Part shown: piece by piece, positions 24,301 through 33,181 of the stretch
Numbering within the stretch: the stretch's first letter is position 1
Layout of the letters: every line of letters starts with the position of its first letter
NCBI GenBank assembly: GCA_016875875.1
Contig: VGOP01000003.1
Span: 1 to 64,000 of the forward strand
DNA: 64,000 nt
Reading direction: 5' to 3'
DNA from: Chloroflexota bacterium
Lineage (GTDB): Bacteria > Chloroflexota > Dehalococcoidia > GIF9 > UBA5629
Position numbers and translations under genes: made by a program
The notes under the pieces: generated by a model
Told to the model about the DNA's origin: nothing
Databases searched by the model: none
What the model saw: only the letters and a program-made list of their open reading frames with translations

Positions 24301-24924
24301 TACCCGTCCGAGTATCCCAGCTAACGGTGCAGCTTCGTTGATGAGATTTAGAGCTTCGTCCGCCTTACCTTTAGCCAAAAGACAGATGAAACCGGGCACA
24401 TTGATACCGAGGGGACAAGCTGCCCGGCAAGGGGCGGTGTCGTTTTTATCTATGGAGTAAGCTGCCGGTATTGACTGAATCCCTACCAGTGGTGCATGGA
24501 TAGCGCCGTGTGCAAGGGTCAAACTACCGTGGGAAAACGGTATTTTGACTGGGCATGCTTCCTGACATTGGCCACAACTAGTGCACAATTTCTCATCAAC
24601 ATATCGGGGCAGTTTTTTCACCTTTAGATTAAATTGTCCCCGCTTCTTGGTTACAGCTTCCACACAAGAGTTAGTGTAAAGCTTAACCCCGGGATGAGTG
24701 GCTGCCCTGAGTAACAGTGGCCAAATGCGGAATTGTTCATTAGCAGAAGCATCTTGCGAGCGGCTACTTCCATTACCGTCTAAACTCAATGCCTTGGTAG
24801 AGACAATGAGGCTAACCTCAGCGCCCATTTGGACTAGATTCAAAGCACACTGGGCTGCACCAACGCTATTACCAATTACTGCAACACCCCTTGCCATCGA
24901 TACTATGCCTAGCTTTTCTTTCAA
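21364..24924 (-). CDS. 1186-residue composite HdrA-like / GltD-like (NADPH) flavoprotein
   Basis: Domain order: degenerate HdrA-type Rossmann unit (VIGNSVGAAQ, 16-25) without the PTxDCSIC Cys motif; ferredoxin cluster C114-124; GltD-type N-terminal Fe-S domain (C166, C170, C209, C213, C217); FAD site GSGPSG (262-267); NADPH site GGGNSA (393-398); GltD C-terminal IFAGGDCITGPN (about 533-544); a Cys nest C629-C645; an HdrA N-terminal domain (VVLCRCGGS at 765, CRCC at 828); a second degenerate Rossmann unit (STGLSGLATA); and two ferredoxin clusters C1111-1121 and C1143-1153. GltD modules exchange electrons between NADPH and Fe-S/flavin centres, so this looks like the NADPH port of an Hdr-based complex. 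It overlaps KorC by 4 nt. Confidence 0.9.
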   Translation of the reverse strand: MKEKLGIVSMARGVAVIGNSVGAAQCALNLVQMGAEVSLIVSTKALSLDGNGSSRSQDASANEQFRIWPLLLRAATHPGVKLYTNSCVEAVTKKRGQFNLKVKKLPRYVDEKLCTSCGQCQEACPVKIPFSHGSLTLAHGAIHAPLVGIQSIPAAYSIDKNDTAPCRAACPLGINVPGFICLLAKGKADEALNLINEAAPLAGILGRVCSHPCEDDCQRAKVDSPVFIQALHRYAADNASGSINYNRRSQVKPREEKIAIVGSGPSGLAAAWELARRGYMPTIFESHAVVGGMLATGIPRFRLPREVREREVEAVKAMGVDIKTGVIVGRDITLSDLREQGYRAFYLAIGAGLNNKLNIPGEDLEGVVDVISMLFALNLKVGATVGSNVVVIGGGNSAVDSARAVKRRSKGTVRILYRRTSEEMTAIKDHVEEALEEGVLIDYLTVPVEIIGDGAKVTGIRCQRMKLGKVDATGRRQPVPIEGSEFTIDADHVVVAIGQRPSTGLLRLKDIKLNDDATISVDPLTLQTNIPDIFAGGDCITGPNTVVEAMAAGLRAAESIDRYLGGRDLRKDRSLESPEPVEVDIKERYVSPQKRTKMPTLPHADRMGSFEETNRGLSAEVSKLEAERCLSCAFCSGCLECERVCQVSAVSHKDTIESVKIEAGAVVNFISNSGTADLSQSEAGQGRTLQISDPGIFVVEAESDGDLWDELSRASAIALDIAQELKLREKTVPTGADAEGNHDGRLNFEPETMGLVGVGDERTGVVLCRCGGSISSIINLSEVVSEIQRLPGVSCVQELSQICTEYGAQEIKTLAAEEQLSRLVVAACRCCNLEQVCFSCTEQRVRCQGYLSRYLGADHSTVVEFVNIREQCAWVHSDNPAEATHKAIEIVSSGVVRAQDTLPVILKGRPITEGALVISTGLSGLATAIGLASQAYSVALIYKSELKRKKGKQPNEYLEKEASLLKELVKLGISVMTWPRTLRLDGVPGNYEAILEYPSETANIKAGAVIVDTGALDKILAQADATFKTSLVGRILAWNTHLDNRVILGFTLREFAIGDPTGIFIVSSSALESPEKQVIMGRAMAARVSSYLSQGMLRPRVTAVDIDRQLCRGCGDCAAVCPYIEMKICDLGTAYAVINPMLCLGCGACITSCPTGAITQLVQNDLSIISTLEAQLKKSSKVGVAT

Positions 24925-25493
24925 TGCTTCAGTTTGTATTCATACCCCAGCGTGAAAGCTTTGATGTTAAATTCTCCCGTGCCTTTGGGCACAGTCGCCA
25001 GAATTGATTTTTTTAATGCTTCAGAAGAAACTACATCGCTGACTGCTGCGAGGAATCCAAGCATGATGATATTGGCTACTACCACCCTTCCCATCTCGCG
25101 GGCGAGATTGGTGGCCGGTATAGAAAGTATCTTAAAGTTCCGGGAGGTGTTTGGTTTTACCATGTCTGGGTCTATAATAACCAGTGCCTCTGGCCCGAGA
25201 TTTGGCGTGTACTTGTTATAGGCCTCTTGTGACATAATAACCAGCACCTGTGGGCTTGCCACGTATGGATAGCCTACAGGCTCATCAGAGACCACCACTT
25301 CAGCACTGCAGGAGCCACCCCGTGCTTCTGGGCCGTAGCTTTGAGTAAGGGTGGCAAATCTCTCTTTCTCGTATAATGAAACCGCCTGCCCCAGAATTTG
25401 ACCGGCAAGCACTATCCCCTGTCCGCCAGTACCGCTTAATCTTACTTCTATTCTGCTCAAGTCCCTTTCTCCAAGCAATCCCTCCCGAATCAT
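24921..25493 (-). CDS. korC: 2-oxoacid:ferredoxin oxidoreductase, gamma subunit (KorC-like)
   Basis: 190 residues from the ATG at 25493, 14 nt after the KorB stop. RLSGTGGQGIVLAG, QSYGPEARGGSCSAEVVVSDEP and MSQEAYNKY are the CoA-binding gamma-domain signatures. A frame continuing upstream to 25562 would overlap KorB by 55 nt and lacks the conserved start position, so it is less likely. The 3' end overlaps the HdrA/GltD gene (ATGA), tying the two enzymes into one translational unit. Confidence 0.92.
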   Translation of the reverse strand: MIREGLLGERDLSRIEVRLSGTGGQGIVLAGQILGQAVSLYEKERFATLTQSYGPEARGGSCSAEVVVSDEPVGYPYVASPQVLVIMSQEAYNKYTPNLGPEALVIIDPDMVKPNTSRNFKILSIPATNLAREMGRVVVANIIMLGFLAAVSDVVSSEALKKSILATVPKGTGEFNIKAFTLGYEYKLKH

Positions 25494-25507
25494 CCGCCTC
25501 GCGCCCG

Positions 25508-26356
25508 CTATCGTTTTTTCGGCTTGCTTGCTCTGCCAAGCATCTGCTGGTAGCAATCCCACAAAGTAGGCCGTTCTATATCAACAAATTTACCTACCAC
25601 AATGGGGCCATTTAGAGATAGCTCAACGTCTTTTGGGTCAGCCCCATCGCGGATGATACTTCTCTCTTGATAGCTGCGCATTTCATCTAGGCCACGTGGC
25701 AATTTATTTTGACGCCCGTAGACAGTAGGGCAGGGGCTGAGCACCTCTATAAAGCTAAAACCTGGTTTGGCCAAAGCTTCAGCGATTGACCTTTCCAGTT
25801 CTCGCAAATGCAACACTGTCCATCTGGCAACATATGTAGCACCACTGGCAGCAACCAGGTAAGGCAAGTTAAAAGGATACTCGAAGTTGCCATATGGTGA
25901 AGTGGCACTTCGAGCCTCGAGTGGCGTCGTCGGCCCCACCTGGCCACCGGTCATACCGTAATTGAAATTATTTATACAAATGACAGTCATATCGATATTA
26001 CGGCGGGCAGAATGAATAAGATGGTTACCTCCAATGGCCACAATGTCACCATCTCCTGAAAAGACCACTACATTCAATTCCGGATTTGCCAGTTTGAGGC
26101 CGGTAGCGAAGGGGAGAGCCCGACCGTGTGTGGTATGAAAAGAGTCCAGCTTAATGTAGCCGGCTACTCTACCCGAGCAGCCGATTCCGGAAACCACAGA
26201 TACTTTATCTGGATTCAGCCCAGCACGGTCAATAGCCCTGATAAAACATCCGGTCGCTGGTCCAATGCCACAGCCAGCACACCAAATGTGCGGTATCCTG
26301 TCTATTCTCAGATAGCAGTCTATAGGATTTGTATCTACTGTCAGCATCTTCATCAT
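25508..26356 (-). CDS. korB: 2-oxoacid:ferredoxin oxidoreductase, beta (TPP) subunit (KorB-like)
   Basis: 282 residues. IWCAGCGIG (24-32), FSGDGDIVAIGGNH and NNFNYGMTGGQVGPTTP form the TPP site; EVLSPCPTVYGRQNK near the C-terminal third is typical of KorB-like chains. The ATG overlaps the alpha-subunit stop by 4 nt. Likely substrates are 2-oxoglutarate or a related 2-oxoacid. Confidence 0.94.
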   Translation of the reverse strand: MMKMLTVDTNPIDCYLRIDRIPHIWCAGCGIGPATGCFIRAIDRAGLNPDKVSVVSGIGCSGRVAGYIKLDSFHTTHGRALPFATGLKLANPELNVVVFSGDGDIVAIGGNHLIHSARRNIDMTVICINNFNYGMTGGQVGPTTPLEARSATSPYGNFEYPFNLPYLVAASGATYVARWTVLHLRELERSIAEALAKPGFSFIEVLSPCPTVYGRQNKLPRGLDEMRSYQERSIIRDGADPKDVELSLNGPIVVGKFVDIERPTLWDCYQQMLGRASKPKKR

Positions 26357-27504
26357 CTGGCTTCCTCTCGTATAGCCTCTAGAATCGTCTCGGGAAGGTG
26401 CACGCCGCCACCCATATGGGGCACCAGCCTAGCCTTAGCTTTGCCTGCAGCACACCGCTCCACTTCCCTAACTATTTGCCCATAGTTTATCTCTGGGACG
26501 ACAAAGGCTTTAACTTTGGGTGCTAGCTTTCTAATGCGGTCTTCAACAAAAGGCCAAACTGTTATCAGCCGTAGCAAGCCAGCCTTTATCCCTTGGTCTC
26601 TTGCCTTCTGAACCGCATATCTAGCAATACGGGCGGATATGCCATAGCTAACCACGATGACCTCAGCATCATCAACATTTACCTCTTCATACCTTATTAT
26701 GTCTTTGGCATTTAGCCGTATTTTATCCACGAGCCGTCGCACCAATCTGTCCTGAGCCTCTGCGGTCATTACCGGATAGCCTCTTTCGTCATGGGTCAGG
26801 CCGGTAACATGGAAGCGATACCCCTCACCGGCTATAGCCATCGGAGGCACAAGCCCCTCCTTGGAATCATATGGCAAGTACTCTTCCGGGGCTACCTTAG
26901 GGCGTGGTCTGTTGACCAACTCTTTTTGGCTGATCCGTTGCATGACAACCTTTTCACTCATATGACCCACCGCCTCATCAGCCATGAGCAGTACAGGTAC
27001 CCGGTATTTCTCAGATAAATTAAATGCCGTAATGGTGAAGTCGAACATCTCCTGTGGAGAATCAGGAACAAGAGCGATGATTTCGTAGTGTCCGTGAGCA
27101 CCCCACCTGGCCTGCATCATGTCCCCCTGTGCGACAAGGGTAGGTAATCCCGTAGACGGGCCTGCTCTCTGAACATTGACTACGACACAGGGCGTTTCCA
27201 GCATCACACCTAGGCCCAAATTCTCCATCATCAAGCTGAATCCCGGGCCTGAGGTAGCAGTCATCGCCTTTACTCCCCCCCAGGAAGCCCCAAGCACGGC
27301 GTTCATGGAAGCTATCTCATCTTCCATCTGCATGAAGACACCGCCTACCTGAGGAAGCCGTTCGCTCATCCTCTCGGCCACCTCGGTTGCCGGTGTGATA
27401 GGATAGCCGGCAAAAAAACGGCAACCGGCACTTATAGCCCCTTCGGCGCAAGCCAAATCGCCATTCATGAAGAATTCACCGCAGAGTACATTCTCCTTAG
27501 GCAT
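26353..27504 (-). CDS. korA: 2-oxoacid:ferredoxin oxidoreductase, alpha subunit (KorA-like)
   Basis: 383 residues starting MPKENVLCGEFF at 27504, 7 nt after the ferredoxin stop. FFAGYPITPATEVAERM, QMEDEIASMNAVLGASWGG and TATSGPGFSLMMENLG are alpha-chain signatures; the AEGAI and GGGVHLPETI segments fit KorA. A longer in-frame extension to 27651 runs antiparallel to good sense only by overlapping the ferredoxin gene and has a non-protein-like Arg/Lys-rich sequence. Confidence 0.94.
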   Translation of the reverse strand: MPKENVLCGEFFMNGDLACAEGAISAGCRFFAGYPITPATEVAERMSERLPQVGGVFMQMEDEIASMNAVLGASWGGVKAMTATSGPGFSLMMENLGLGVMLETPCVVVNVQRAGPSTGLPTLVAQGDMMQARWGAHGHYEIIALVPDSPQEMFDFTITAFNLSEKYRVPVLLMADEAVGHMSEKVVMQRISQKELVNRPRPKVAPEEYLPYDSKEGLVPPMAIAGEGYRFHVTGLTHDERGYPVMTAEAQDRLVRRLVDKIRLNAKDIIRYEEVNVDDAEVIVVSYGISARIARYAVQKARDQGIKAGLLRLITVWPFVEDRIRKLAPKVKAFVVPEINYGQIVREVERCAAGKAKARLVPHMGGGVHLPETILEAIREEAR

Positions 27505-27511
27505 GTGTTGC

Positions 27512-27787
27512 CTACACTTCTTTTTCTTCTTTCTCTTCCGTAGTTGGGTAAATCCCGAACTCGGGACATATTGCCTCGCAGAGACCGCAACCCAGGCATT
27601 TACTCTCGTCGACCACCTTGACCATGTCATAGCCCTTGGGACTGAGCTCATCAGTCATCTTCAAGACTCCGCGAGGACAAAATTCCGCGCAATAGCCACA
27701 TCCTTTGCATCTGTCTATGTCAATGTGCACCTTGACTGGCCTAGGGGCCTTATCGGCTATATCGAAAGGCTTTCTCCACAATTTCAT
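27512..27787 (-). CDS. korD: 2-oxoacid:ferredoxin oxidoreductase, delta ferredoxin subunit (KorD-like)
   Basis: 91 residues; CKGCGYCAEFCPRG and CLGCGLCEAICPEF bind two [4Fe-4S] clusters. First cistron of the Kor/Hdr operon. The C-terminus is Glu/Lys-rich (EEKEEKEV). Confidence 0.93.
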   Translation of the reverse strand: MKLWRKPFDIADKAPRPVKVHIDIDRCKGCGYCAEFCPRGVLKMTDELSPKGYDMVKVVDESKCLGCGLCEAICPEFGIYPTTEEKEEKEV

Positions 27788-27916: not shown

Positions 27917-27945
27917 TTGAGATTCAGCGATATTAAAGCTAAAAT
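27917..27945 (+). promoter_or_regulatory. Leaderless promoter of the PKD/OB lipoprotein gene
   Basis: TTGAGA (27917-27922), 17-nt spacer, TAAAAT (27940-27945), then exactly 7 nt to the ATG at 27953. No Shine-Dalgarno. Both hexamers and spacing fit, making this the clearest leaderless case in the window. Confidence 0.65.
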
Positions 27946-27952
27946 TCAGACA

Positions 27953-28621
27953 ATGCGTAAGCTTTTTCTATTAGCTTTGTTATTACTTGCGCCTATGATA
28001 AGCTGCGCTCGAGAGTCTGAGCCTGTCCTTATACCACCTCCCACAGCGGATTTTGCCGCCAGTCCGGAAGAGGGGCTAGCTCCTTTGGCAGTTACCTTTA
28101 CTGACTTATCAACAGGTGATGTTACCCGCCGGCATTGGGACTTCGGCGATAGGCAGTTCAGCAATGGGGCGGGGCCTAGCCATACTTATACTACAGCCGG
28201 AAACTACACCGTTTCGCTGGCAATAATGGGGCCAGGGGGAAGTGACGTAGAAACAAAAGTCGAATACATAAAAGTGGGCAGTGGGGTCATAAGCTGGAAG
28301 GAAGCAGGCAGCTATATCGGTCAGCACAGAGTGGTCGAGGGAATAGTCGCTGGAACTTATTATGCAGCGGACACAAAAAGCCAGCTTACCTTCCTCGATT
28401 TCCATAAGCCTTATCAGGGCTATTTCAAATGCATAATTTGGGGTCGTGACAGGGGGAAGTTCGTAAAAGAGTTCCCACCTAATCCCGAAACTTACTTCTT
28501 AAATAAGCGTGTTCAGGTCACCGGCTTAATCGAAGAATATCCCAAAGGCTCAGGTGTCCCGGAGATAGTCCTCAGAGACCCATCTCAGATCAAGGTCGTC
28601 GTAGAACAGCTTACTCCATGA
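27953..28621 (+). CDS. Lipoprotein with PKD domain and OB-fold
   Basis: 222 residues from ATG 27953. Lipoprotein signal peptide MRKLFLLALLLLAPMISC (Cys at 18). Residues about 30-105 are a PKD domain (ADFAASPEEGLAPLAVTFTD, HWDFGD, HTYTTAGNYTVSL). The C-terminal half (SWKEAGSYIGQHRVVEG, TFLDFHKPYQGYF, IIWGRDRGKF, LNKRVQVTGLIEEY) resembles an OB-fold of the type found in small nucleic-acid-binding or exported proteins. Extracytoplasmic, lipid-anchored. Function unknown. Confidence 0.85.
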   Translation: MRKLFLLALLLLAPMISCARESEPVLIPPPTADFAASPEEGLAPLAVTFTDLSTGDVTRRHWDFGDRQFSNGAGPSHTYTTAGNYTVSLAIMGPGGSDVETKVEYIKVGSGVISWKEAGSYIGQHRVVEGIVAGTYYAADTKSQLTFLDFHKPYQGYFKCIIWGRDRGKFVKEFPPNPETYFLNKRVQVTGLIEEYPKGSGVPEIVLRDPSQIKVVVEQLTP

Positions 28622-28848: not shown

Positions 28849-29766
28849 ATGAAAAACGCAGCTATTAGGTGCTTAATCTCATTTGCAGTGCTGCTCTTGT
28901 TAACACTCACTTTGGTTGTGGCTTGCGCTCAGCCAGTGCCAGCTCCGTCATCTCCTGCACCACCCCAAGTACAACCACCAACTACTACTGAAAATAAGCC
29001 GCCAGAAGAAACGCCTCCGTTCAACGAAGCCACTAATGAACATGGAGAGGAATGGCGCACAATTGAGACTTTCAGCGGCAAGGGAAACTACACTACACCT
29101 ACATTCCATATAGATGGCACAGAATGGCGCATCACCTGGGCAATAGATGCTGAAGACCCTGGAACAGCCATCTTTAAACTGGTTATTTACCAAAAAGATG
29201 CGCCCTATGCGATATGGCAGACCGTTTCCAACCCAGGTAGCAGTAGCAGCGAAGTCAATTATTTTTTATCTCCGGAAGATAAACGCGATTTCTTCATTAA
29301 TGTCACAGCTCAGAATCTGCGCTCCTGGACTGTTATAATAGAAGACAACGCCCTTACGGCACCCTCTTCCCCTGTCCAAATAACTTATATTCGTTACAAG
29401 GGTATGGTGTATCCACGAGATTCGGCAAAAGGCATATGCTACGAAAGGGTCGAGCCTGATGAATATGTGGTTATCAAAAACATCAGCGAGTGCTATGTGG
29501 ATATTAGTGGCTGGGTACTAAAGAACAGGAACAAGATATATCCCTCGTTCACTTTCCCGTCCTGCGTACTGATCCCGGGGGAAATCATACGAGTTTATAC
29601 AGACGAGTTCAATCCCGAAACTGGAGGTTTTAGTTTTTACTATGGCCCTGGCGATATCTGGAGTAACAATAAGCCCGATATAGCTGTTTTGTACGATGCC
29701 CAAGGCAATGAGGTCTCCAGAAAAAGCTACACGGTCCCCACAAAAATAAATGAGGCCAGCCAGTGA
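28849..29766 (+). CDS. Lipoprotein with C-terminal lamin-tail domain (LTD), copy 1
   Basis: 305 residues. Lipobox LTLVVAC (Cys near 26), a Pro/Thr-rich linker (about 28-60), a middle beta-rich domain (GTEWRITWAIDAEDPG ... LRSWTVIIED) and a C-terminal LTD-like Ig fold (EPDEYVVIKNISECYVDISGWVLKN ... GDIWSNNKPDIAVLYDAQGNEVSRKSY). LTDs occur on bacterial surface and secreted proteins as binding modules. The gene shares the same architecture with the one at 31191-32180, and the caspase-like gene lies between them, starting inside this gene's stop codon (GTGA). Confidence 0.83.
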   Translation: MKNAAIRCLISFAVLLLLTLTLVVACAQPVPAPSSPAPPQVQPPTTTENKPPEETPPFNEATNEHGEEWRTIETFSGKGNYTTPTFHIDGTEWRITWAIDAEDPGTAIFKLVIYQKDAPYAIWQTVSNPGSSSSEVNYFLSPEDKRDFFINVTAQNLRSWTVIIEDNALTAPSSPVQITYIRYKGMVYPRDSAKGICYERVEPDEYVVIKNISECYVDISGWVLKNRNKIYPSFTFPSCVLIPGEIIRVYTDEFNPETGGFSFYYGPGDIWSNNKPDIAVLYDAQGNEVSRKSYTVPTKINEASQ

Positions 29767-31181
29767 ACAGCGAAGTAAATTGGGATAGGACGATGTTCAA
29801 GAAAACTCTTTTTATTTTCTCATTAAGCCTGCTTCTGGCAATACTAGTAATGCAGATTCAAGCCTTCTACATGCCGGCACTTGCCGAAGAGCCTAAACCA
29901 GAATGCTGGGCCGCTATCATAGGTGTAACAGAGTACCGATGTCCATTCTGTGTATTTGACAAGGAATGGAACGTATATCCAGTAGGAGTAAAACATCCTG
30001 ATGACGATGCACGAGACTTGGCCGCTCAATTATCCCCTATCATTGGTAAAGACCACATTAAGCTATTGCTAAATAGTGAGGCAACTAATGTGGGCATCTA
30101 TTATGCAATCCAGTGGCTGGCTGAAAGGTCCGGTGCTGATGACACCGCGTTGTTTTATTTCTGTGGACACAGTGCTCCCCAAAATCTAGGGTCCTACGAT
30201 TATTTCATTTCAGATTGGCAACTAGCTAACTGGCTAGACAAACTAAATTCACAAAAGGTCGTCGTCATCTTGGACACTTGCTATGCTGGCTCCTTCAGCA
30301 AGGAACTTGGCCGGAATGGCCGAGTAGTCCTGATGGGCTGTCAACCAACTGAAAGCTCTCTCGAAGACCGTGAGCTTGAGCACGGTGTTTTCACACACTA
30401 CATCCTGCAAACGTTCAGTAATTTCGATGCCGCCGACACGAACCGCGATTATGAACTCTCTGCTGAGGAGATATTTGAGTATGCCAATCCTAAGACCATA
30501 GAAGAAATTGTATCACCTTTTGCTAATCTGCCAGCTTTCTCAAAGGGAAATGTGCAACACCCTGCACTTTACACACCCCCTTATCGCTCTGGTCAAATCA
30601 ATCTGTTTATGAATGTCATCTTCCATACCGACGCTAACTTTCCATCTGACGCCACAGTCTTAACCGCAGACGGGGAACCATACTTAATAGGAGAGTTGCC
30701 CACGTCGTTCACTTGGCTATCCGGCTCAGCCCATCGCTTCGATATTCCCCTACAAGTGAGCACCACGGAGGGAACGAGGCTCATGTTCACCTCGTGGAAT
30801 GATGGCGATAAATCCATTTCGAGAACGATTTCACAAGGCGGCGAATACACGGCCAATTACAAAACTCAGTATACGCTCGAACTCGAATCACCCTACGGTA
30901 GCCCTAAGGGGGAGGGCTGGTATGATTCAGGCTCAAGAGCTACCATCTCAACAAGTTCTACCGAAGGAAAGATAATCCAGCATATCTTCACCGGCTGGAG
31001 CGGAGATTTTACCGGACAAGAAGCTACCGCATTGGTGACCATGGATAAGCCAAAAACGATCAAAGCTAACTGGAAAACTGATTACCTGAGGCTCTACTTA
31101 CTCATATTCGGCCTCATAGCCCTGACTGGAATCACCGCAACCATTATGGTATATATACACAATAAAAAGAAATCACTCTAG
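29763..31181 (+). CDS. Membrane-anchored caspase-like peptidase with EF-hand
   Basis: 472 residues from the GTG overlapping the previous stop; an ATG at 29793 (MFKKTLFIFSLSLL) is an equally plausible start that gives a cleaner signal peptide. The caspase/metacaspase fold spans about 48-270 with His136 in FYFCGHS and Cys173 in ILDTCYAGSF, the catalytic dyad of clan CD peptidases. Residues 225-236 (DTNRDYELSAEE) fit a canonical EF-hand calcium loop. About 330-438 is a beta-rich repeat region (FTSWNDGD, FTGWSGDFTG) and a C-terminal helix (441-464) ends in KKK. Topology suggests an extracytoplasmic, membrane-tethered protease, possibly calcium-dependent. Substrates unknown; the flanking LTD lipoproteins are the obvious candidates. 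Confidence 0.87.
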   Translation: MNSEVNWDRTMFKKTLFIFSLSLLLAILVMQIQAFYMPALAEEPKPECWAAIIGVTEYRCPFCVFDKEWNVYPVGVKHPDDDARDLAAQLSPIIGKDHIKLLLNSEATNVGIYYAIQWLAERSGADDTALFYFCGHSAPQNLGSYDYFISDWQLANWLDKLNSQKVVVILDTCYAGSFSKELGRNGRVVLMGCQPTESSLEDRELEHGVFTHYILQTFSNFDAADTNRDYELSAEEIFEYANPKTIEEIVSPFANLPAFSKGNVQHPALYTPPYRSGQINLFMNVIFHTDANFPSDATVLTADGEPYLIGELPTSFTWLSGSAHRFDIPLQVSTTEGTRLMFTSWNDGDKSISRTISQGGEYTANYKTQYTLELESPYGSPKGEGWYDSGSRATISTSSTEGKIIQHIFTGWSGDFTGQEATALVTMDKPKTIKANWKTDYLRLYLLIFGLIALTGITATIMVYIHNKKKSL

Positions 31182-31190
31182 GAGTCCGTC

Positions 31191-32180
31191 ATCTATTCAG
31201 CACCATCATCAGCGCGTGTTTCACTTCTATACATTGGATTGGCACTTTTGCTGGCCAGTCTGATTATGGCGTGCGGACTAACGAAGCCAACCCCACCGGC
31301 TTCCAAGCCCAAGACGCAACCACCCACCAATACTGAAAATCAAACGCCGACAGAAACATCCCCACCTGAAGAGACCAAAAATGAAGCCGAATGGAGCACC
31401 ATTCAGACTTTTACTGGCAAAGATAGTAAGGATACAACCCCATTTCACGTTTCTGGCACAGAATGGCGCATTATCTGGGCAGCAAATGCTGAGCGCCCTG
31501 AATACGCCGTTTTCGACATCCTTGTATATCCACAGGACAAACCAGGCGTGCTTACGAAGAGGATTTCATACTCAAAAGGTACTTCTAGCGACACTGCCTA
31601 CATCTATGAAGGCGGCCGTGACTACTATTTGAAAGTTACTGCAGCCAATTTGAGTAGTTGGACTATAACAGTGGAAGAACCAGCGTCAGACTACACAAAC
31701 CAGAAGTTGACCTCCCCTGTGCAGATAACTAAGATCAACTACAAAGGCCAGGATTATATCAAGAGCCATGAAGCGGGATATGACATAATTGAATTCGATG
31801 AATATGTAGAAATCAAAAACCTGAGCGATTCTCGGCAGAATATAGCCGGGTGGGTGCTGAAGAATCTAACAAAGGGGGGACCTGCGTTTGTCTTCCCCAC
31901 CTTCATGCCGTGCTCATGTCAATGGTACGGCAACTTTGAAGATTGTATTAAATACTGCTCTCCCCCACGCCCATGTGCCATAGACCCCCATAGGAGCATT
32001 CGAGTTTATACTGGCGAAATCCATCATGAATCGGGAGGTTTCTGCTTCTGCTTGTTCCCAGGCGATATCTGGAACAACGAGATACCTGATACAGCCGTTC
32101 TATATAATCTTGAAGGTCAGGAGGTATCCAGAAAAAGCTATATAATAACAGCTAAGAACAGTGTTACCTCAGGTGAGTAG
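31191..32180 (+). CDS. Lipoprotein with C-terminal lamin-tail domain (LTD), copy 2; unusual start
   Basis: The mature part matches copy 1: Pro-rich linker, GTEWRIIWAANAERP middle domain, LTD (FDEYVEIKNLSDSRQNIAGWVLKN ... GDIWNNEIPDTAVLYNLEGQEVSRKSY) plus an inserted Cys-rich loop (CSCQWYGNFEDC, CSPPRPC). Lipobox ASLIMAC. The only standard start is TTG at 31239, which leaves a signal peptide with no basic n-region. Further upstream the frame stays open back to the caspase stop (TAG, 31179-31181) and encodes SSARVSLLYIGLALLLA. AGGAG (31180-31184) stands 6 nt before an ATC (31191), so a rare ATC start is proposed; the TTG is the conservative alternative. Confidence 0.75.
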   Translation: MYSAPSSARVSLLYIGLALLLASLIMACGLTKPTPPASKPKTQPPTNTENQTPTETSPPEETKNEAEWSTIQTFTGKDSKDTTPFHVSGTEWRIIWAANAERPEYAVFDILVYPQDKPGVLTKRISYSKGTSSDTAYIYEGGRDYYLKVTAANLSSWTITVEEPASDYTNQKLTSPVQITKINYKGQDYIKSHEAGYDIIEFDEYVEIKNLSDSRQNIAGWVLKNLTKGGPAFVFPTFMPCSCQWYGNFEDCIKYCSPPRPCAIDPHRSIRVYTGEIHHESGGFCFCLFPGDIWNNEIPDTAVLYNLEGQEVSRKSYIITAKNSVTSGE

Positions 32181-32380: not shown

Positions 32381-33181
32381 ATGCAACAAAGGTGTCCTAA
32401 TTGTGGTTCGCCAATTGCGCCGGGTCAGCGATTTTGTGGTGGCTGTGGTGCTCAGTTAAGCCTCGCTTGCCCCTATTGCAGGATCACGGTCAGCCCTGGA
32501 ACTAAGTTTTGCCCGAGCTGTGGTGCCTCATTAGGCGGAGGCACGCCCCAGCAACCGGGATGGGGACCACAGCCAGGTGGAATGCCACCGCAACAACCAG
32601 GTTGGGGACCACAGCCAGGTGGAATGCCACCGCAACAACCAGGTTGGGGACCACAGCCAGGATGGGGACAGCAACAAGCATGGGCACCACCAGCGCCAAA
32701 GAGGCAATCATCGTCATCGTCGAGACCGTTTCTAGTGCTATTGTTATTTGTCCTCCTTATCGGCCTTGGAGCTCTCACTTATTTGTACACACCAATCGGT
32801 GATACAATAAAAGACCTACTCCAATCTTACACTGGTGGCACCACCACAACGCCTACCGTAGATACCACAAAGCCAGTATTATCAGATTACAATGCAAATG
32901 TAGGCCCAACCAGTGCTGCTATCACCTGGAAAACTGATGAGTTCTCTAGCACCCAGGTTGAGTATGGTGAGACCGTGGCTTATGGTTCAGTTATGCCAGC
33001 CATACCAGATCACGACCCAACTGGTGGCCAGTCGCTCGGAGTTGTCGACCATGCTGTAACTTTGACCGGCCTTAAGCCAAACACTATTTACCATTATAGA
33101 GTCAAGTCCAAAAACGCGGCCAACCTTGAAGCAGTATCAGCCGATCAGACTTTTACCACCACTACTGCGTCCGAAGAGTAG
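32381..33181 (+). CDS. Double zinc-ribbon, Pro/Gly/Gln-repeat, single-TM protein with FnIII domain
   Basis: 266 residues. Two zinc ribbons (CPNCG...CGGCG at 5-23 and CPYC...CPSCG at 30-48) are cytoplasmic, followed by a low-complexity linker built from a 14-residue repeat (QQPGWGPQPGGMPP), a membrane helix (about 117-138) and an extracytoplasmic fibronectin-III-like domain (about 167-258: AITWKTDEFSSTQVEYG, LTGLKPNTIYHYRVKSK). The same FnIII-type domain recurs in the lipoprotein at 36159. Function unknown. TTGCTT-18-TATAAT upstream (about 32270-32299) is a possible promoter. Confidence 0.82.
   Translation: MQQRCPNCGSPIAPGQRFCGGCGAQLSLACPYCRITVSPGTKFCPSCGASLGGGTPQQPGWGPQPGGMPPQQPGWGPQPGGMPPQQPGWGPQPGWGQQQAWAPPAPKRQSSSSSRPFLVLLLFVLLIGLGALTYLYTPIGDTIKDLLQSYTGGTTTTPTVDTTKPVLSDYNANVGPTSAAITWKTDEFSSTQVEYGETVAYGSVMPAIPDHDPTGGQSLGVVDHAVTLTGLKPNTIYHYRVKSKNAANLEAVSADQTFTTTTASEE
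32549..32663 (+). repeat. 42-bp in-frame tandem repeat
   Basis: Two full copies (32549-32590, 32591-32632) and one partial (32633-32663) differing at only a few bases, encoding the Pro/Gly/Gln linker. Likely length-variable. Confidence 0.9.

Follow-up and report, generated by a model that had tools for sequence, protein, structure and literature searches.

The window analyzed here is a stretch of 64,000 nucleotides from a Chloroflexota bacterium of the class Dehalococcoidia (contig VGOP01000003.1 of assembly GCA_016875875.1; genome G000 below), and it contains a locus in which a gene for a caspase-like protein lies between two genes for lipoproteins with a lamin tail domain (LTD), LTD1 and LTD2 (Table 1). 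All three genes run in the same direction, and the open reading frames of LTD1 and the caspase overlap by 4 nt (GTGA). The first-pass annotation had proposed this arrangement, and the genes are real: the middle protein scores 27.4 bits against Peptidase_C14 (cut-off 21.4), LTD1 and LTD2 score 43.0 and 39.4 bits against PF00932 (cut-off 34.3), and His136, Cys173 and the loop at residues 225-236 lie where that annotation had put them. The shared layout that it recognized in the two LTD proteins is likewise confirmed, each comprising a lipobox, a Pro-rich linker, a beta domain and the LTD. In the whole genome (1.97 Mb, 20 contigs), LTD is matched twice and C14 once, in every case at this locus.

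Table 1. Genes and features of the LTD-caspase-LTD locus (window coordinates).
Feature	Position	Strand	Basis and remarks
PKD + OB-like lipoprotein-type gene (upstream neighbor)	27917-28621	+	PKD_4 2.7e-14
LTD1	28849-29766	+	ATG start, 305 residues; PF00932 43.0 bits; lipobox Cys26, Pro-rich linker, beta domain, lamin tail domain
Caspase-like gene	29763-31181	+	GTG start, 472 residues; PF00656 27.4 bits; clan CD fold; PADLOC caspase 9.4e-9
Putative export signal of caspase	29793-29888	+	hydrophobic core ending PALA-EE; read by eye
Caspase domain	29889-30614	+	Pfam, alignment and fold matches
Catalytic His136	30168-30170 (CAC)	+	alignment
Catalytic Cys173, in LDTCYAG	30279-30281 (TGC)	+	alignment
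EF-hand-type loop, residues 225-236 (D-T-N-R-D-Y-E-L-S-A-E-E)	30435-30470	+	alignment
InlB-like B-repeat stalk (PF18998 match, residues 378-439)	30618-31082	+	20.4 bits, below cut-off 23.6
Putative C-terminal hydrophobic membrane helix, then KKK	31089-31160	+	sequence; model helix 438-471
LTD2	31191-32180	+	proposed start ATC; lipoprotein, Pro-rich linker, beta domain, lamin tail domain; PF00932 39.4 bits
Zinc ribbon-fn3 gene (double zinc ribbon + membrane helix + fn3-type; downstream neighbor)	32381-33181	+	conserved

As judged from its sequence, the middle protein is apparently an exported, membrane-anchored member of the caspase family with an intact catalytic dyad. The His-Cys pair by which orthocaspases are recognized is present, as is the Asp-x-Cys motif. 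A match to Peptidase_C13 is just above its cut-off (24.4 versus 22.8 bits), and C14 fits better by sequence. In the EF-hand-type loop, ligand positions 1, 3, 5, 9 and 12 are filled (D225, N227, D229, S233 and E236), and D225, D229, S233 and E236 are invariant in all seven aligned sequences: these four positions account for 4 of the 20 invariant columns of the alignment, in which the His and Cys columns vary. The caspase domain is followed by InlB-like stalk repeats, which the first-pass annotation did not note, and by the putative membrane helix. The same stalk-plus-helix module recurs in many proteins of 550-770 residues in this family (e.g. L078:6478-8643) and is apparently a common surface-anchoring module.

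The structural model agrees with this assignment. In a Foldseek search the caspase model matched 3bij (GSU0716) best, at 7.1e-9, followed by legumain, MALT1 and metacaspases, and in VIA-align it scored Z = 21.0 against Arabidopsis metacaspase 4, 19.9 against legumain and 19.1 against the catalytic subunit of GPI transamidase. The model thus assigns to the middle protein the caspase/legumain (clan CD) fold. For the LTD1 model there were 14 matches at E ≤ 0.001, every one of them a nuclear lamin tail domain. Since the alignments behind these models are shallow, it carries no meaning that no other fold was matched. A phmmer search for solved relatives of the caspase returned none, the best match (E = 0.55) being at chance level.

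The beginning of the third gene differs from what had been proposed. The position, 9 nt beyond the caspase gene, is correct, but its codon is ATC: no ATG or GTG start was found there. This ATC (31191) is preceded by AGGAG, and we propose it as the start of LTD2; the first canonical start, TTG 31239, lies 11 residues before the lipobox Cys, with no basic residue in between. The open frame of LTD2 spans 31182-32180 and is in frame with the caspase past the caspase TAG at 31179. Readthrough of this TAG into LTD2 was considered and dropped, as the two frames differ in G008, where LTD2 has its own ATG. For the caspase itself, ATG 29793 is an alternative start. Promoter and terminator scans gave no decisive signal, and an Rfam scan of the window found tRNAs only. 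Directly upstream of the locus, on the minus strand (24921-27787), is a run of genes that by eye resembles a 2-oxoacid:ferredoxin oxidoreductase operon.

We compared the locus with 30 genomes of the same family. The caspase domain occurs in four of them: with the stalk in G000, G003 and G008, in each of which LTD genes adjoin it, and as a stalkless 35% relative in G022. The G003 caspase (CP070642.1) is 76% identical to the window copy over the protein. Because the G003 record is a chain of contigs joined by 100-N spacers, in which the contig with the caspase breaks off within that gene's last codons and the one with LTD2 begins in the signal peptide, we infer across this assembly gap that G003 has the same three-gene order as the window. 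In G008, where the linkage is contiguous, LTD1' has its middle domain doubled and is followed in turn by caspase A, LTD2, caspase B and the zinc ribbon gene. Contig ends fall within or beside the gene group in G002, G003 and G007 and near it in G008 (L064, L065, L072, L075), suggesting strain variation or repeats.

The LTD genes are far more widespread. Of 100 relatives, 36 have LTD1-like proteins, and LTD pairs that lack a caspase are frequent (G001, G006, G012, G076); the caspase is therefore an optional part of the locus. Homologues of the PKD-OB gene occur in seven LTD loci, and those of the zinc ribbon gene also lie beside LTD genes. Together the sequences delineate a conserved, predicted surface locus of one Dehalococcoidia family, with the PKD-OB gene, one or two LTD lipoproteins, the zinc ribbon-fn3 gene and an optional caspase cassette; a general three-gene LTD-caspase-LTD system is not borne out. 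Single LTD genes (G007 and others) appear to combine parts of LTD1 with parts of LTD2, as would be expected if tandem copies had recombined. Near-identical LTD loci occur in G076 and G006 (L068, L069), which are assigned to different families, and one of these bins may be contaminated.

Where the caspase is present, it is maintained. The ratio of nonsynonymous to synonymous substitution rates (dN/dS) between G000 and G003 is 0.12 for the caspase domain, 0.19 for the stalk, 0.29 for LTD1, 0.16 for LTD2, 0.20 for the PKD-OB gene and 0.16 for the zinc ribbon gene: the caspase domain is therefore the most constrained part measured, and these ratios indicate that it is not decaying in G000 or G003. 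Eight stalked caspases were compared (G000, G003, G008 A and B, L093, G095, G130 and G176), of which the last three come from small genomes that are probably Dehalococcoides, since each has 19-28 matches to reductive dehalogenases. The His-Cys pair is intact in six of the eight, and the EF-loop pattern is present in all, both dyad-less copies included; in L093, loop position 5 is Asn. G008 caspase B (L065, G008:C5, 473-2107, minus strand), downstream of LTD2, has gained an insertion and kept the loop, stalk and helix. The L093 caspase (L093:9896-11371) adjoins a gene that by eye resembles a Ser/Thr kinase with a zinc ribbon. Among stalkless relatives the loop is present in G022 and G072 and absent in G037, G044, G038 and G148, and similar loops are found in some distant caspases (L097, L100).

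How the cassette comes and goes is suggested by the leader, defined here as the region that begins at the stop codon of the preceding LTD gene and extends into the first codons of the caspase or LTD2. The leaders of the G000 and G003 caspases and of both G008 caspases match the LTD2 leaders of G001 and G006: in all eight pairs, 0 of 500 shuffles reached the score (in an earlier version of the test, 1 of 1000 did so for the G000 caspase against G006 LTD2). For LTD2 of G000, G008 and G012, and for the L093 caspase, the leaders gave weak scores at best against that group, the best being G012 LTD2 and L093 against the G000 caspase, reached by 13 and 30 of 500 shuffles, respectively. Since caspase genes and the LTD2 genes of these two caspase-less genomes share this leader, the caspase behaves as a removable cassette whose presence and absence were exchanged within the signal-peptide region. 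G001 has no caspase match, and its stretch from LTD1 to LTD2 is unbroken. The cassette was probably lost more than once. We favor deletion because G008 caspase B carries the leader too, downstream of LTD2 rather than LTD1, and because G001 branches next to G000 and G003; tandem duplication could explain the leader on G008 caspase B, and an alternative to deletion is that the caspase captured an ancestral LTD2 leader.

Outside this lineage the association was not found in the loci scanned. The first-pass annotation had expected linkage to be conserved in related genomes, which is the case for G003 and G008 and for no more distant genome: a home-made LTD profile, run on 71 caspase loci with flanks of 1.5-10 kb (four of them, L091, L092, L094 and L120, repeat L064, L065, L077 and L132), detected an LTD beside the caspase only at G003 and G008. 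Reversed sequences gave no match to the profile. In a class-wide sample, C14 was found at E ≤ 1e-5 in 31 of 393 genomes, a threshold that misses the window's own caspase and hence other weak C14 members; 14 of the 31 also have an LTD, and among the LTD places covered, which include those of G125, G214 and G218 but not one further place in G121, both families lie on one contig only in G008. In a phylum-wide sample at E ≤ 1e-12, 61 of 400 genomes have C14 and 123 of 400 have LTD, and none of 30 C14 loci with flanks of at most 1.5 kb contained an LTD. On these results, a general LTD-caspase linkage is rejected. No paper on a lamin-tail/caspase gene pair was found among openly licensed PubMed Central papers, supplements excluded.

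The account we favor, tentatively and at a little short of an even chance, is that the protein is an accessory, membrane-anchored extracytoplasmic orthocaspase in a conserved LTD lipoprotein locus, encoded by a dispensable cassette that some relatives have lost by deletion. The caspase would be exported and anchored through its C-terminal helix on the outer side of the cytoplasmic membrane, and calcium bound in the loop would stabilize its structure. It would cut envelope or extracellular proteins, probably after Arg or Lys, the specificity that goes with the Asp-x-Cys motif in metacaspases and is also given in the abstract of PMC6426788. The LTD lipoproteins would be expressed with it as surface ligand-binding partners. 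Deletion between similar signal-peptide regions would have removed the cassette in some relatives, and some copies would have become pseudoenzymes. The topology of the L093 orthologue, in which a zinc ribbon follows the membrane helix, was counted in favor of this account.

Several results weigh against it. The stalked caspase is present in only 3 of 30 family genomes, and the stalked homologues in L093, G095, G130 and G176 have no LTD neighbor, so that the caspase evidently works elsewhere without LTD partners. Loss of His or Cys in homologues, which the first-pass annotation had named among the findings that would refute its reading, has occurred in two of the eight stalked caspases: in G008 B the His is replaced by Arg and the Cys by Gly, and in L093 the His is replaced by Tyr and the Cys is missing. 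The remaining six keep both residues. Because of the two dyad-less copies, part of the family may work without proteolysis. The LTD tree has several weak forks and mixed support, leaving the direction, loss or gain, unsettled. The models were built from shallow alignments (six sequences for the caspase, five for LTD1), and their mean predicted local distance difference test scores (pLDDT) are 55.0 and 59.1, respectively; ten-residue means for the caspase are 67-91 over residues 81-250 and below 50 in the stalk, so that stalk and linker are effectively unmodelled.

Other explanations draw on the same observations. That the caspase processes both lipoproteins, releasing or activating their LTD domains, would suit the tight co-directional packing with its 4-nt overlap, the long Pro-rich linkers and the expectation that caspase and LTD proteins face the same side. 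Yet Lys and Arg are absent from the linkers of both LTD proteins in G008 although its first caspase copy is intact, linker Lys/Arg counts across the three caspase-bearing genomes range from 0 to 4 with no conserved site, and the LTD proteins persist in many caspase-less genomes. We consider such processing unlikely, and the earlier suggestion that the lipoproteins are substrates or inhibitors is unsupported. An equally improbable alternative is a calcium-bound binding or scaffold module in which proteolysis is secondary or lost: all eight stalked homologues retain the loop, and the dyad is lost in G008 copy B and L093, but the window protein has an intact dyad, and purifying selection on its caspase domain is strong. 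Nor do we give much weight to a transient chance association, in which a caspase without functional link was inserted into the lipoprotein locus and is on its way out. Its presence in 3 of 30 genomes, the lack of a normal start codon in window LTD2 and the repeated rearrangement of LTD genes are what this would predict; the gene order common to two genera and the constraint on the caspase are not.

Less likely still is a conflict or defense effector, comparable to those of caspase-linked bacterial immunity, that lies at the locus by chance. The PADLOC 'caspase' model matches (9.4e-9), presence is patchy, and the NCBIfam EACC1-associated caspase profile gives 43.1 bits; this score, however, is far under the cut-off of 140, which leaves the protein outside that family. 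The signal sequence, stalk and C-terminal helix would put the domain outside the cytoplasm, and the scan of the four neighbors yielded one weak candidate match (SNc+LTD, for LTD1) and no known effector-adaptor pair. A long shot of about the same order concerns expression: the cassette would acquire the leader and start codon from which LTD2 is otherwise expressed, leaving LTD2 in the window with a weak ATC start, while caspase-less lineages make full LTD2, and caspases and dead copies would tune which protein dominates the surface.

Few roles have been assigned to secreted bacterial caspase homologues. With its defined neighborhood, a relative that carries an inactive duplicate, and a stalked counterpart in probable members of Dehalococcoides, a cultivable genus, the present caspase makes a role testable, and its shared leader is a clear example of a gene slipping into and out of an operon through the signal-peptide region.

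The families themselves are known. With orthocaspases (Peptidase_C14, clan CD) the window caspase shares the fold, the His-Cys pair, the Asp-x-Cys motif and a Pfam match over the cut-off; it differs from those described in its InlB-like stalk and C-terminal helix and in its position between lamin-tail lipoproteins. Legumain and GPI transamidase (Peptidase_C13) are close in fold (Z 19-20) and match just over the cut-off, but the best-scoring structure is a metacaspase. Orthocaspases with signal or membrane helices and varied operon neighbors are described in PMC3501461. PMC6426788 reports that 858 of 9,994 orthocaspases have one or both catalytic residues substituted, gives only three pseudo-orthocaspases in Chloroflexi (in Ktedonobacteria and Anaerolineae), and notes EF-hand motifs in seven archaeal orthocaspases. 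Given these motifs and the similar loops in distant caspases, the loop is no novelty. Like other pseudo-orthocaspases, G008 copy B and L093 have lost His and Cys; they differ in their Dehalococcoidia origin and in having kept the EF loop. The LTD lipoproteins resemble bacterial LTD surface proteins in being surface lipoproteins with structural matches to lamin; they lack a nuclease domain such as that of the large LTD protein described in PMC8289736. What is new is the lineage-specific arrangement, the shared leader and the inactive copies in Dehalococcoidia, whereas pseudo-orthocaspases and membrane-linked caspases were known already (PMC6426788, PMC3501461): we regard the locus as a lineage-specific variation on known parts, not as a widespread new system.

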